Assembly: GCA_012842495.1 (NCBI GenBank)
Contig: DUSS01000008.1
Span: forward strand, 1 to 64,000
DNA from: Candidatus Fermentithermobacillaceae bacterium
Lineage (GTDB): Bacteria > Bacillota > Sulfobacillia > Fermentithermobacillales > DUSS01
Reading direction: 5' to 3'
Length of the DNA stretch: 64,000 bases
A program made the position numbers and the translations under genes. Below, in pieces: positions 14,407 through 25,563 of the stretch; position 1 is the stretch's first letter, and the number at the start of each line of letters is the position of its first letter. Below the pieces are notes generated by a model. It was not told where the DNA came from. It searched no databases and was given only the letters and a program-made list of their open reading frames with translations.

Positions 14407-15075
14407 CTAACGCCAGGGTCTCTCCTCGAGTCGGGGAGGAAAAACTCCCTCGTGTAGAACTTTTCCGGATTCATCGTATACGATAGCCTTGTCGGGAAAG
14501 TAATTTCCCCACTCGTGAGGTCCCGTCCACCAGAAGCCGTTCTTTATGACACAGCTGAACTCTTCGCCATCGCCACGCACGAGTACTACCTTTGCCGCTC
14601 GCGGGTCTACCGCCCAGCCGGCAGCGTAGATTCCAATTTCACCTCCGGGGGTGATCTCGCCTCCGAAGTCCGAACCCGTAATCGTGGGCCCCGAGCTCTC
14701 GGTCAACAACGGATAGCAGCCAACAGTCCCCGACCAAGCAGACTGGCCGTCTTCGCGAACCTCTCGAAGGTGTCCCCACACATAGTAAGTCAGGTCCGGT
14801 CGAAAAAGCGTAGTGGGATGGCGTGGGTTCCCCCGGCATGTCGCGACTACGAATAACCCGCCTTGGTACTCGTCTAGAACGTACCACGTGAGGTCCTTGA
14901 CCGACGTGAACGTCCGCTCAAGGGCCTCTTCAACGCGCTTCTTTACACCTTCCGGGATTTGACCTTCCTCGATAGGAACGGGCTTGAACTGCCGAACGCA
15001 TCCGAGGAAACAACCAGCCATCGTTAGAAGGGTCAGCAAAACAACTAGAGACGCCAACTTACTGCGTCCGGGCAC
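14407..15075 (-). CDS. putative lipoprotein, tandem duplicate copy 1
   Basis: 222 residues of unknown function. A signal sequence ends in a lipobox-like TMAGC near residue 22, so export and lipid anchoring are likely. The rest is soluble with aromatic-rich stretches (TYYVWGHLR, NGFWWTGPHEWG) conserved between the two copies. It starts GTG 15075 and is the downstream copy of a direct gene duplication; the first 50 residues of the two copies are nearly identical, while the middle (about 110-165) has diverged. No known domain recognised. Confidence 0.7.
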   Translation of the reverse strand: MPGRSKLASLVVLLTLLTMAGCFLGCVRQFKPVPIEEGQIPEGVKKRVEEALERTFTSVKDLTWYVLDEYQGGLFVVATCRGNPRHPTTLFRPDLTYYVWGHLREVREDGQSAWSGTVGCYPLLTESSGPTITGSDFGGEITPGGEIGIYAAGWAVDPRAAKVVLVRGDGEEFSCVIKNGFWWTGPHEWGNYFPDKAIVYDESGKVLHEGVFPPRLEERPWR

Positions 15076-15236
15076 CTGGGCATCAACCCCCTCTGGATAA
15101 TCTATTCTGTGCCGCCCGGTAATACCAGTCTCTTGGTGCGAGCCTCCAGCCTAAAAGAAATCAGGCATTATGTCCCCGCACCTTGTACTCGGGTATTTAG
15201 CCTCGTTGAATTCACCCGGATTCCGGCCCGTCACTC

Positions 15237-15902
15237 CTAGCGCGGAGGCTGCCTCCACGCAGGAGGAAAATCTCCCTCGTATAATGCTTTACCTGACTTA
15301 TCGTAGACCACAGCTCTGTCCGGGAAGTAACTTCCCCATTTATGCGGTCCGGTCCACCAAAATCCGTTCTTTACGGTGCAGTCGAACGCGCTACCGTCGC
15401 TGCGTATGAGCTGTATCTTTGTTGCCTGCGAGTATGTTACCCACCCCACGGCGTAGACTCCGAGCTCAGCCGCCGGGAAGACCCTACCTGCGAAATCATA
15501 TCCTCTGGGTGCAGATGGTGAAGCACTGGCCTGCAGTGGGCCGCGCCTGACAGGTCCTGACCACTCCGACCCAGCGTCTTCAGTGACCTGGCGAAGATGT
15601 CCCCAGACGTAGTAGGTCGTATCTGACTGGAAGTCTGTCGTGGGTAGGCGCGGGTTACCGCGGAACATCGCGACCACAAACAACCCGCCTTCGTACTCAT
15701 CCAGGACGCACCACGTCACGTCTGTGACCGAACTGAATGTGCGTTGAAGCTCCTCTTCAACGCGCTTCTTTACACCTTCGGGGATTTGACCTTCCTCGAT
15801 AGGAACGGGCTTGAACTGCCGAACGCATCCGAGGAAACAACCAGCCATCGTTAGAAGAGTCAGCAAAACAACTAGAACCGCCAACTTACTGCGTCCGGGC
15901 AT
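15237..15902 (-). CDS. putative lipoprotein, tandem duplicate copy 2
   Basis: 221-residue paralogue of the gene at 14407-15075, with the same signal sequence, lipobox (TMAGC), and C-terminal NGFWWTGPHKWG block. Function unknown. The upstream 60 bp are also shared between the copies (CAACCCCCTCT..GATAATCTATTCTG read on +), so promoter and ribosome site were duplicated with the gene and both copies are probably expressed alike. Start ATG 15902, with AGAGGGGG about 12 bases upstream. Confidence 0.7.
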   Translation of the reverse strand: MPGRSKLAVLVVLLTLLTMAGCFLGCVRQFKPVPIEEGQIPEGVKKRVEEELQRTFSSVTDVTWCVLDEYEGGLFVVAMFRGNPRLPTTDFQSDTTYYVWGHLRQVTEDAGSEWSGPVRRGPLQASASPSAPRGYDFAGRVFPAAELGVYAVGWVTYSQATKIQLIRSDGSAFDCTVKNGFWWTGPHKWGSYFPDRAVVYDKSGKALYEGDFPPAWRQPPR

Positions 15903-17710: not shown

Positions 17711-18685
17711 TTACAGACCGAATACTCTGCGGGCGTTGCCGCTGCGGATCATCTCCTTTTCCTGTTCGGGTATCCTGAGAGATTCCACGACCCTGACGGC
17801 CCCCGCCAGGCTTCCGATCTGGTGCGGATAGTCGCTGCCGGCCATGAACTGGGTGGCACCGATGGTCCTCACGGCGAATTCCACCGTTTCCCTGTGGAAA
17901 AGGACGCAGTCGTAGAATATCTCTTTCAGGTACTCCGAAGGCGCTCTCTCTATCTTGCGGCACTCCGGATATGCCCGGTAACCCCTGTCCAGGCGCTCTG
18001 CGAGGTAGGGCAGGGTTCCTCCCAGGTGCGATGAGATGATCTTGAGTCCCGGGTACCTGTCCAGAACACCGGCGAAAATCAGCCGGGCGATGCATAGCGT
18101 AGTATCGGTGGGAAAGCCCACCGTGGCGACCAGGCGATAATCGAGAAATGCCTGGGAAGGGGAGGGGGTGGTCGGATGGATGAAAAGGGGCGCGGAGAGT
18201 CTCACTGCAACCTCGAAGATGGGCTCGAATTCGGGGAGATCGAGGGTTTTGCCGTTTACGTTGGTGAACAGAGTGCCGCCCTTGAGACCCAGAGTCTTCA
18301 CGGCGTACTCGAGCTCCCTCGCCGCCCTGTCCGGTGCCTGAAGCGGCAGAGACGCCAGAGCCTGGAAGCGACCGCCGCTTTTCTGCACGACCTCGGAGAA
18401 CCCTTCATTCACAGCCCTGGCCAGTTCCACCCCACGGCCTTCTTCCTCTATGTGAACCCCGGGCGTGGTCATGGTCAGAACCTGAATGTCTATCCCGTTC
18501 CCCGAGATTTCGCCCAACCGGAAATCGGCATCGCGGTGGCCCCTGTCTACGATGTTGAAATCGCCTTCGTAAAAGATGACCGGGTTGCCCGATGCGTCCC
18601 GTCCCATCTTCGCCCTGGAGCGCCCTTTCGCGATCTCCTCCAGGTAAGCACCGGGGTAGAAATGATTGTGGACATCGATGACCAT
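17711..18685 (-). CDS. amidohydrolase family 2 (ACMSD-like) metal-dependent hydrolase
   Basis: 324-residue TIM-barrel hydrolase or decarboxylase. Metal ligands are recognisable: HxH in DVHNHFYP at the N-terminus, His in PLFIHPTTP near 172, His in SSHLGG near 220 and Asp in GSDYPH near 284. Family members include aminocarboxymuconate-semialdehyde decarboxylase and other aromatic-acid decarboxylases; substrate here is unknown. It lies 17 bp downstream of the NhaC-family gene and should share its T-box-controlled transcript, which hints at a substrate linked to tyrosine or another aromatic compound. That link is inference. Confidence 0.82.
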   Translation of the reverse strand: MVIDVHNHFYPGAYLEEIAKGRSRAKMGRDASGNPVIFYEGDFNIVDRGHRDADFRLGEISGNGIDIQVLTMTTPGVHIEEEGRGVELARAVNEGFSEVVQKSGGRFQALASLPLQAPDRAARELEYAVKTLGLKGGTLFTNVNGKTLDLPEFEPIFEVAVRLSAPLFIHPTTPSPSQAFLDYRLVATVGFPTDTTLCIARLIFAGVLDRYPGLKIISSHLGGTLPYLAERLDRGYRAYPECRKIERAPSEYLKEIFYDCVLFHRETVEFAVRTIGATQFMAGSDYPHQIGSLAGAVRVVESLRIPEQEKEMIRSGNARRVFGL

Positions 18686-18702
18686 CGTCGAGAACCTCCT
18701 TT

Positions 18703-20187
18703 TCAGTTTCCATTGCGGTTTGGTCTTCTCGGGAAACTCGATTCGCCGGTGAATGTTCCCGTGAGCGTGTAGATCGTGGCGACCAGCGGACTCGTCCAGT
18801 TCAGCAGGGCATACGGCGCATACTGAACGGCGGGGATCCTGAGCATGTCGTTGATGAAAAGGGCCGCGGTACTCCAGGGGACCAGGGGTGCGCCCAGCGT
18901 GCCGAAGTCTTCCAGTGTTCGTGACAGGATCTTCGCCGGAACGCCCCGTCGAGCGAAAGCTTCGCGAAACGCCTGTCCCGGCAGGATGAGAGCGAGCATC
19001 TGGTTTCCCGTGGCGAGAAGGGTGAGGTAGCAGGAGGCAGCCACCGAGAGAATGAGCCCCCGCGAGGACCGCACGGCCAGAAGCACAGCCTGCACGAGCC
19101 GCTCTATGACACCGAAATCTCTCAGCACTCCTCCCATGCCCGTTGCCATCAGGATGAGAAAAACCGTCGGGAGCATCGAATTCATCCCGCCCCTCGTCAG
19201 GAGCTTGTCAACCACCGGATCTCCAGATTTGCTCACGTAACCGGCGACCATCGCCCTGGCAAGGGAGCTCGGGGACGATCGTTGAGTGAAGATCGCTGTG
19301 GCAAATGAGATCGCCAAGACCCCGGCAAGCGCGGGTACGGGAGGGACCTTCTTGATGGAGAAGACGGCCAGGAACACGATGGGAACGAGGGTGAGAAATC
19401 CCGTGTTGAAGGCGCCGAGAAGGGCCGACCGGGGGGCACCGGTGGGGACAGGAGCTGCGTGCGCGGAGTAGCCGGTTCCGAGAAAAAAGAAACCGGCCAG
19501 GGAGATAGCGAGAGCGGGAAGCGTGGTGTAGGCCATCGCGGCTATATGCTCGTAGATATTGCTTCCCGATACCGCGGGGGCGACGTTGGTGGTGTCCGAC
19601 AGCGGAGACATCTTATCGCCGAAGTAGGCACCCGACACGATGGCGCCGGCGAGGAGGGGTCCGGGCACCCCCATCGCTTCGCCGACACCCATGAGGGCCA
19701 GGCCCACGGTGCTGATGGTCCCGAAGGACGTGCCCGTCGCGACGGATGCCACACATGACAGAAGGCAGGAGGTGGGGACGAGGAACCGTGGTGTAAGCCA
19801 GCTGAGTCCGCAAGACAGGAGCGTGGGAATCGTTCCCCCTGCGATCCACAGACCGACCAGCATACCTATGAGCAGGAGAATGCTCGCCGCCGGTAGCCCA
19901 TCGACTACTCCTTTGAAGAGAGCCGCCTGTATTCTCTCCCACGGGTTTCCCAGAAGTCGGGTGCCGATGCAAGAAACTGCTAGAGCGAGGAAAAGCGGAA
20001 GGTGCATGCCGGCTCCGAGCCGCAGACCGACGATGAGAACTACGAGAACGGAACCGAAAACGAGAAGAGACTGGACCGTGGACGGGTGCCGGGGACCGGC
20101 CTTGCCGGCGTCGTCCCCGGCCGGACCGCGGGTGTTGGCGCAGGCAGTCGGAAACGCGCCTTTAATGTGTCTATCTGCTTCAATCAC
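18703..20187 (-). CDS. NhaC-family transporter, probably amino acid (tyrosine) uptake
   Basis: 494 residues with about 11-12 membrane helices. NhaC-type features include SGAYFGDKMSPLSDTTNVAP in the middle and TGNQMLALILPGQ and WSTAALFIN near the end. The family is usually named Na+/H+ antiporter. Here, however, the gene is preceded by a T-box leader whose specifier reads UAC (tyrosine), and NhaC-like genes under tyrosine T-boxes have been proposed to import tyrosine. I therefore favour Na+-coupled tyrosine transport. Start GTG 20187 with AGAGGTG 7 bases upstream; a longer frame reaches 20226 without a better ribosome site. Confidence 0.85.
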   Translation of the reverse strand: MIEADRHIKGAFPTACANTRGPAGDDAGKAGPRHPSTVQSLLVFGSVLVVLIVGLRLGAGMHLPLFLALAVSCIGTRLLGNPWERIQAALFKGVVDGLPAASILLLIGMLVGLWIAGGTIPTLLSCGLSWLTPRFLVPTSCLLSCVASVATGTSFGTISTVGLALMGVGEAMGVPGPLLAGAIVSGAYFGDKMSPLSDTTNVAPAVSGSNIYEHIAAMAYTTLPALAISLAGFFFLGTGYSAHAAPVPTGAPRSALLGAFNTGFLTLVPIVFLAVFSIKKVPPVPALAGVLAISFATAIFTQRSSPSSLARAMVAGYVSKSGDPVVDKLLTRGGMNSMLPTVFLILMATGMGGVLRDFGVIERLVQAVLLAVRSSRGLILSVAASCYLTLLATGNQMLALILPGQAFREAFARRGVPAKILSRTLEDFGTLGAPLVPWSTAALFINDMLRIPAVQYAPYALLNWTSPLVATIYTLTGTFTGESSFPRRPNRNGN

Positions 20188-20269
20188 GACTTTCACCTCT
20201 TTCTGATAAGTTCTACCTCTCCTCAAGGTCTACCCAATCTCGCGGCCCTGCTTCAGGAGGAAAACGGGT

Positions 20270-20640
20270 CCTGGAAAACAAGAACCCGTCCCTCAAGGGA
20301 CGGGTCGATATGCCCGCGGTACCACCCCAGTTGGTCGAAACCCGCTCAACCAGGCACGGCAGCGTCTGTTTCCTGGGTTCCCGGAAGAACGACCCGGTCC
20401 GCACGTATCGCCCGCGGCCGGGAGCTCTTGCCCGGGACTACTGCGATGCCCTCTTCCAGGTAACGGTGGAAGGTCCGCCTGAGTCTACTGCCGCAGAACT
20501 GCGGGTTCAACCGGAAGCTCCGAGGTGTATTTCTCCTGGACCGCCGTCCCGGTCGCACCGGCCCCGGGCTCTCTGAGCGGCCGGTTCCAGGGTACTTCTC
20601 CTCTTCATAGCTCAGCAGCGCTTTGAGATTGTTAGCAGAA
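20270..20640 (-). promoter_or_regulatory. T-box riboswitch leader, specifier UAC (Tyr)
   Basis: On the minus strand the T-box core GGTGGTACCGCGG is at about 20313-20327, directly before a terminator hairpin. Upstream, stem I features are visible: GAGGAGAAGTA (loop E side, with AGTA), an AGAGAG box, and GAGAAA-TAC-ACC where the specifier codon TAC is complementary to 20527-20529. The pattern GAA(A)-NNN-A fits the specifier loop, so uncharged tRNA-Tyr should trigger antitermination. The alternative frame AUA (Ile) is less likely because the base after the specifier is normally a purine. Controls the NhaC-family gene and the amidohydrolase. Confidence 0.88.
20275..20305 (-). terminator. T-box intrinsic terminator
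   Basis: On the minus strand ACCCGTCCCT pairs with AGGGACGGGT around a two-base loop (20284-20305 on +), followed by TTCTTGTTTT. The 5' arm overlaps the region that would pair in the antiterminator with the T-box core, as expected for a T-box switch. Confidence 0.85.
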
Positions 20641-20642
20641 CG

Positions 20643-20670
20643 TTTATCACGAAACGGGCGATAGTGTCAA
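20643..20670 (-). promoter_or_regulatory. promoter of the T-box transcript
   Basis: Minus strand TTGACA (20665-20670), 16 bp spacer, GATAAA (20643-20648), placed about 20 bp before the first base of stem I. Confidence 0.55.
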
Positions 20671-24003: not shown

Positions 24004-25563
24004 ATGGCCAGGCGCATAGCTCTAATTGGCTCAAGCGGCGGAAACCTCTACAATCTGGGAGGTAAGGATCCGGTCAACCTCATAGATGAGGTTGTAAGGC
24101 AGGCCTCCGCCGCCCAAATCGAGGTTTCGGACGTCCTGTTCATAGCTGCTAAGGCATCGATGGATCAGGTGAAGCCCGATACCCCGGCAGCTATCTACGT
24201 GTCAGAAGGTGGAACGCCTAAAGTTGCTTTCGAGGGACCTCTTGAGCAGGTCAACGGGAAAGCCAGGGAAATGGACGCTGACATCGCTAAGAAGATCAAA
24301 GCCGGAGAGATAGACGGGTTATTTCTCGTAAGCTGCGACCCGGATGGCGTCAACCGGGAGAGCCTCAGGGCAGCTGCTCAGCAACGCCTCGTAGTCGTGG
24401 GCACGGGCGGTACCTCGATGGCCAAGGCCCAGTCTATGGGGACAACGGTGATCTCGGTATCGGGGACTACCGGTACCACTAATAGGACAAGGGCGATTGC
24501 GGGTATTTCCGCTTTGGCCAAGCACTGGGGTCTTAAGTACCGGCCGGTGATAGGCAAGGCCTCATCTCCGGGGGCGGTCTCCGGGAGCCCGTTGCAACGT
24601 GTGAACTTCCGCGGGATCATGATGGCTTCCTTGCCCGGTTTCATCGCGATGGCGTTGACCCTTGCGATTGGAAAGATCCCGGGACTTGGCGTGTTCAGCA
24701 CGATTTTCGATACGATGATCGCCGCGCTGCCCGTAATCGTCGCGGCGGTAGCTGCAAAGCAAGTGTCCGGGATGGACGAAGTGGCCGTCGTCGCAGGAGT
24801 GGTCGCCGGTACCCTCTCGGCAAAGGGAGGCATCATAGGCGGAATCATCGGCGGCGTCCTTGCGGGTATTCTGGTTCCGTACCTGCTGACTCTGTCTCTT
24901 AACTGGCGTTTTCCGGCTACAACTGCGAATATAGTCGCCGGCGGGATTTCGGGTTTAGCTTCCGGCTTGGTCGTGTACTTCCTCATAGCGCCGCTGGCTC
25001 TTTGGGCCGGAAATGGCATCAGAACGCTAATCGATACTCTTGTTGGACTCAACTCGGTGTTGGCAGGGGCGGTGGCTGGTCTTCTGATCTGGCCGGCCAT
25101 AATCGGAGGGGTTTACCACGCGGCAATCCTTCCTATAGTGCTCCTCGAGATGGAGAAGACGGGCTCGAGTTTCCTGGGTGCTATCGATATGACCGGCCTC
25201 GTCATGGTATCCGCGGGGATAACTCTGGCGAACGTGCTTTACCCGAGGACGAAAGATGAAGCTACGGTGGCATTGCCCGGGTTCGTGGTCAACGTTGGAT
25301 TCGGCACTTTCGTCGAGGCAGCTTATCCTTTCATGTTCTCGGACAGGCTTGTGTTCGGCGGAGCTTTGCTTTCGGCGGCGTTGTCCGGCGCGTTTGTGGG
25401 CGCCTTTAACGTGAGAGGTACCGCGTATGTGCCGTCGGTTGTCGCACCGGCGATGTCCAACAATCCCGTCGGTTTTCTTGTGTCGATGTTGGTGGCGATG
25501 GGCGCTGCTTTCCTCTTGACGCTCGCAGCCAACAAGAGGGCGAGGATGCGCCAACGCTCATGA
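24004..25563 (+). CDS. PTS EIIC-like membrane protein with soluble N-terminal domain
   Basis: 519 residues. Residues 1-185 form a soluble alpha/beta domain with Gly-rich loops (LIGSSGGNLYNLGG, VVGTGGTSMAKAQSMG, SGTTGTTNRTRA). The remaining 330 residues are about nine to ten membrane helices with Gly/Ala-rich loops (GGIIGGIIGGVLAGI, GGVYHAAILPIVLLEME) like sugar-specific PTS EIIC permeases. No IIA, phosphocysteine motif or HPr gene is near, so phosphotransfer is unproven. It shares a unit with the TIM-barrel gene 58 bp downstream and the GntR regulator further on. Substrate unknown. Start ATG 24004 with AAGGAGGG upstream. Confidence 0.72.
   Translation: MARRIALIGSSGGNLYNLGGKDPVNLIDEVVRQASAAQIEVSDVLFIAAKASMDQVKPDTPAAIYVSEGGTPKVAFEGPLEQVNGKAREMDADIAKKIKAGEIDGLFLVSCDPDGVNRESLRAAAQQRLVVVGTGGTSMAKAQSMGTTVISVSGTTGTTNRTRAIAGISALAKHWGLKYRPVIGKASSPGAVSGSPLQRVNFRGIMMASLPGFIAMALTLAIGKIPGLGVFSTIFDTMIAALPVIVAAVAAKQVSGMDEVAVVAGVVAGTLSAKGGIIGGIIGGVLAGILVPYLLTLSLNWRFPATTANIVAGGISGLASGLVVYFLIAPLALWAGNGIRTLIDTLVGLNSVLAGAVAGLLIWPAIIGGVYHAAILPIVLLEMEKTGSSFLGAIDMTGLVMVSAGITLANVLYPRTKDEATVALPGFVVNVGFGTFVEAAYPFMFSDRLVFGGALLSAALSGAFVGAFNVRGTAYVPSVVAPAMSNNPVGFLVSMLVAMGAAFLLTLAANKRARMRQRS

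Follow-up and report, generated by a model that had tools for sequence, protein, structure and literature searches.

A tyrosine T-box operon of a Candidatus Fermentithermobacillaceae bacterium joins an NhaC-family transporter to an amidohydrolase of a transporter-linked family

Results and discussion

A 64,000-nucleotide stretch of contig DUSS01000008.1 (here called the window) carries a T-box leader, an NhaC-family transporter gene and an amidohydrolase gene, which we read, with a probability of about two in three, as a tyrosine-starvation uptake or salvage operon in an apparent aromatic auxotroph; in this reading the amidohydrolase is an amino-acid enzyme linked to transporters. The main new result is the linkage of this amidohydrolase family to transporters, a strong functional linkage in that genes of two unrelated transporter superfamilies stand directly before those of one enzyme subfamily with an unchanged pocket. 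The features are as follows.

20293..20617, minus strand: tyrosine T-box leader, Stem I to antiterminator (RF00230, 94.9 bits, model 1-219)
20593..20596, minus strand: Stem I AGUA motif (sequence and model alignment)
20527..20529, minus strand: specifier codon UAC (Tyr) (model alignment, register calibrated on 8 other T-boxes)
20321..20324, minus strand: T-box bulge UGGU, pairing partner of the tRNA acceptor end (sequence and model alignment)
20283..20306, minus strand: intrinsic terminator hairpin of 10 pairs, followed by a T-rich tail
18703..20190, minus strand: NhaC-family transporter, putative carrier of tyrosine or a tyrosine derivative (PF03553, 176 bits; TIGR00931, 357.9 bits)
17711..18685, minus strand: ACMSD-like Amidohydro_2 enzyme, 324 aa (PF04909, 122.8 bits; predicted fold Z 41 versus human ACMSD)

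The T-box leader and its specifier

Analysis with cmscan aligned the leader to the full RF00230 model (1-219) with 94.9 bits against a gathering score of 93 (E 1.5e-19), the sole Rfam match above gathering score in the window, and the T-box core, terminator, Stem I AGTA motif and UAC specifier read in the initial annotation were all confirmed. Nine T-boxes were found in the genome, the focal leader included. Model alignments of the other eight gave the specifier-position codons ACC (upstream of thrS), UGG twice (trpS and a TrpP-like transporter), CCC (proC), UGC (cysE-cysK), UUC (pheS), GUC (valS) and AGC (serS), with the genes named by eye from their translations, and the specifier agreed with the downstream gene in all eight cases. 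Because the register agrees with the genes at these eight T-boxes, the focal UAC (Tyr) is secure; no other codon was placed in the specifier loop, and a misreading of the specifier is ruled out by the calibration. The discriminator A of tRNA-Tyr fits the antiterminator bulge UGGU. The same leader precedes the same NhaC gene in three related genomes (G002, G005 and G008), with UAC in 4/4 leaders when the focal one is counted. In the focal leader (20360-20460) and in that of the sister species (L042 3140-3235), Stem III and the antiterminator are joined by a linker that, compared with G005 and G008, is G+C-rich and extended by about 70 nt.

Operon structure and the NhaC-family transporter

The order on the minus strand, from 20617 to 17711, is T-box leader, NhaC-family gene and Amidohydro_2 gene. 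A single transcript is likely, since the two genes are separated by only 17 nt and no terminator-like site was found between them. The first gene product matched PF03553 (Na_H_antiporter) with 176 bits (gathering score 23), and its best named model was TIGR00931 (Na+/H+ antiporter NhaC) with 357.9 bits, which is under the cut-off of 370 passed by the relatives L068 (395) and L072 (505.9); a PDB sequence search with the protein matched nothing. Together with PF04909 and the predicted fold described below, the PF03553 match bears out the earlier naming of an NhaC-family gene and an ACMSD-like amidohydrolase behind the T-box.

Candidatus Fermentithermobacillaceae are described as anaerobes that ferment peptides and amino acids (PMC10215811). 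Chorismate synthase (PF01264) and prephenate dehydrogenase (PF02153) gave no match in the focal genome or in any operon-bearing member of the order, a pathway absence to be read with the caveat that the genomes examined are mostly MAGs. As both models were detected in 14/14 control genomes, and also in some relatives, the host lineage appears to be auxotrophic for tyrosine and, more widely, aromatic amino acids, and tyrosine import under tyrosine control would then be expected.

From the tyrosine T-box, the apparent aromatic auxotrophy, the published tyrosine T-box/NhaC cases and the presence of nhaC in enterococcal tyrosine decarboxylase clusters we infer, with good support, that the NhaC-family protein is a tyrosine transporter. 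This reading is probable but not new, the association of tyrosine T-boxes with NhaC having been published already: NhaC transporters under tyrosine T-boxes were described in several Bacilli, with tyrosine transport predicted (Wels et al., 2008; PMC2494555). Those of the type of BA4353 from B. anthracis (PMC2494555) resemble the focal case in having a tyrosine T-box directly 5' of an NhaC-family gene of predicted tyrosine transport. The likeness consists of T-box and family membership, whereas the focal case lies in Fermentithermobacillaceae, has an amidohydrolase as second gene and belongs to an apparently auxotrophic host. Enterococcus faecalis and Tetragenococcus halophilus likewise have nhaC together with tyrosine genes (tdc, tyrP, tyrS) in their tyrosine decarboxylase clusters, its role there being reported as unknown (PMC4932888), but these are catabolic clusters with another NhaC branch and no amidohydrolase. 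No T-box was found within the flanks read at either nhaC locus, and the E. faecalis T-box NhaC of Wels et al. (2008) may be another copy than the one in the decarboxylase cluster. New here are the apparently auxotrophic host lineage, the co-occurrence of NhaC and amidohydrolase with four UAC leaders, the replacement of an ACMSD arginine by asparagine, and the family-wide transporter linkage. No report of an amidohydrolase under a tyrosine T-box or paired with a permease was found among the hits of the open library searched.

The amidohydrolase and its relation to ACMSD

The second gene product matched PF04909 (Amidohydro_2) with 122.8 bits, and no NCBIfam family was returned for it. Its predicted model (pLDDT 93.8) is a TIM barrel that superimposes on human ACMSD with Z 41 and an rmsd of 2.2 over 320 residues. 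The metal ligands H6, H8, H170 and D285 and the catalytic H220 are kept in 84/84 aligned members, and Arg231, corresponding to Arg235 of human ACMSD, the second substrate arginine that is contributed by the neighbouring subunit, is invariant in the 84 members as well. Fold, metal ligands, catalytic histidine and inter-subunit arginine are thus shared with ACMSD and related Amidohydro_2 decarboxylases. The focal family differs from ACMSD, however, in that the substrate-binding Arg47 is replaced by Asn44 and Phe294 by His288, both in 84/84 members, and in further invariant residues of its own as well as in its linkage to amino-acid transporters. Judged from alignment and predicted fold, the enzyme is a member of the ACMSD-like group of Amidohydro_2, not ACMSD proper. 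Among characterised enzymes, those closest in fold decarboxylate aromatic or muconate acids, a reaction of which tyrosine is not an obvious product.

Linkage of the amidohydrolase family to transporters

For the family survey, 80 named loci were taken as the best-ranked of the search; many are from MAGs, related species among them are not independent, and 77 had room upstream. At 52/77 loci a transporter gene lies directly upstream in the same direction, mostly at a distance of 40 nt or less, encoding an APC permease in 46/77 and an NhaC-family protein in 6/77, while 25/77 have no transporter partner. By hmmscan, AA_permease_2 was detected in 45/64 and Na_H_antiporter in 6/64 upstream reading frames, and for the permeases checked the best models were L-type amino-acid transporters, with scores below the cut-offs. 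APC-linked members come from Acidobacteriota, Gemmatimonadota, Aminicenantes and others, NhaC-linked ones from Bacillota. In the tree, NhaC-linked members account for 8/9 rows of one Bacillota clade (SH-aLRT 99) and APC-linked members fall mainly into a separate clade of 58 rows (SH-aLRT 100); two others are placed in different parts of the tree. No transporter neighbour of this kind was seen for eight amidohydrolases at a greater distance (34-42% identity).

The association with two unrelated carrier superfamilies, together with the unchanged pocket, points to a shared kind of substrate for the enzyme subfamily, and as its members adjoin amino-acid transporters in several phyla, the pair has the look of a common module for amino-acid uptake. 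No T-box was detected by core pattern at the APC-amidohydrolase loci; among the 80 named loci the pattern was found only in L067 and L068, 5' of NhaC in both, and as an unrelated T-box in L072. In L056 (1247-7048), the genes for a trans-4-hydroxy-L-proline dehydratase, its activase and an M20 amidohydrolase directly precede that of a relative of the focal enzyme.

Distribution of the NhaC-amidohydrolase pair

Within the genus and order, 16 further genomes were compared. Close homologues of the NhaC protein were detected in G002, G005, G008 and G014, and the same four encode the amidohydrolase in full length, at 66-88% identity. Neither gene is present in G001 and G003, and G007 has amidohydrolase pieces only, without NhaC. 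As a point against the preferred reading, G028 (L046/L071) encodes an amidohydrolase of 67% identity but no NhaC. In G008 the NhaC gene is apparently split across two contigs, one of which carries the T-box. Adjacent pairs also occur outside the order, in G050, Tepidanaerobacter sp. GT38 and one further Bacillota MAG, and no T-box was detected for the pair in Tepidanaerobacter, L073 and G050. The pairing therefore seems to predate the T-box or to have arisen independently of it, and only in Fermentithermobacillaceae is the connection with tyrosine firm. Of the remaining NhaC genes in the phylum, the nearest ones (28 loci) had no T-box core in the flanks examined. The amidohydrolase is a genuine and conserved partner of the transporter.

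Three observations concern individual loci. In the single-contig genome G007, of the same order, the amidohydrolase fragments without NhaC (L061 5550-6122) have the appearance of remnants of a lost operon. The NhaC of the sister species G002 (L042 3405-4619) seems to be missing about 80 residues in frame, corresponding to 64-146 of the focal protein, by which membrane segments would go, reflecting either a deletion or an assembly error. Near the NhaC-amidohydrolase pair of Tepidanaerobacter sp. GT38, the T-box in L072 (10940-12395, minus strand; 113 bits) has the specifier UUC (Phe) and lies 5' of a gene for an ABC substrate-binding protein that looks to be of the TrpX type.

Proposed function and alternative explanations

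By analogy with known T-boxes, uncharged tRNA-Tyr would pair at two sites, the specifier UAC and the bulge UGGU, and its binding would stabilise the antiterminator so that transcription goes on. The transcript would yield the NhaC-family carrier, a putative importer of tyrosine or of a tyrosine-yielding compound, and the ACMSD-like metalloenzyme, a member of a distinct subfamily encoded behind amino-acid transporters (NhaC in Bacillota, L-type APC permeases elsewhere). Because the subfamily is encoded repeatedly in this position, the amidohydrolase most likely acts on something that the transporter carries: it may release or convert an imported amino-acid compound, or make a counter-substrate for exchange. 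The initial suggestion that it represents a new step of tyrosine supply gains from the recurrent pairing with amino-acid transporters and is plausible rather than proven. That the family, in several phyla, derives a usable amino acid from a compound that has been imported, the product here being tyrosine, made by a previously unknown salvage step under T-box control, is a tentative idea and somewhat doubtful.

Instead, tyrosine may be imported as such and the amidohydrolase be a co-transcribed catabolic partner without a role in tyrosine supply, for example a decarboxylase in amino-acid fermentation, perhaps with exchange of substrate and product. The nearest solved relatives are indeed decarboxylases, the lineage ferments amino acids (PMC10215811), one relative (L056) adjoins the trans-4-hydroxy-L-proline dehydratase gene, and pairs without T-box occur. 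A T-box, however, would switch the operon on at tyrosine shortage, the wrong moment for degradation, which speaks against a purely catabolic enzyme (an argument that does not extend to pairs lacking a T-box), and the substrate-binding arginine of ACMSD is replaced; we consider this explanation unlikely. A true kynurenine-pathway ACMSD, with which fold, metal ligands and catalytic histidine agree, was rejected as a likely role and is scarcely credible given the exchanges of Arg47 to Asn and Phe294 to His in 84/84 members and the lack of any recurring kynurenine-pathway neighbour at the 80 loci. The kynurenine pathway, moreover, requires oxygen. The host, in contrast, is an anaerobe (PMC10215811). 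3-Hydroxyanthranilate dioxygenase (PF06052) had no match in host or relatives, a result that carries no information here because the control genomes gave none either.

The transporter itself could be an ordinary Na+/H+ antiporter, its tyrosine T-box serving an indirect pH or ion response, and TIGR00931 as best named model would agree with this. That score stays below the cut-off, though a T-box-bearing relative passes it, and the conservation of UAC in four genomes, the lack of aromatic pathway matches in the lineage and the occurrence of other NhaC genes under tyrosine T-boxes make such a role very improbable. With tyrosine uptake or salvage as the preferred reading, the NhaC carrier, from a family with largely conjectural specificities, gains a testable substrate, and the second gene offers a way into a so far uncharacterised family of enzymes, for which the T-box names the amino acid to test first.

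Elsewhere in the window, a 519-aa protein (24004-25563, plus strand) had no Pfam match, and its C-terminal part matched PTS EIIC models only weakly. At 14407-15902 (minus strand), two adjacent and nearly identical genes, each encoding about 220 aa with a lipoprotein-like N-terminus (MPGRSKLA...), indicate a recent tandem duplication.
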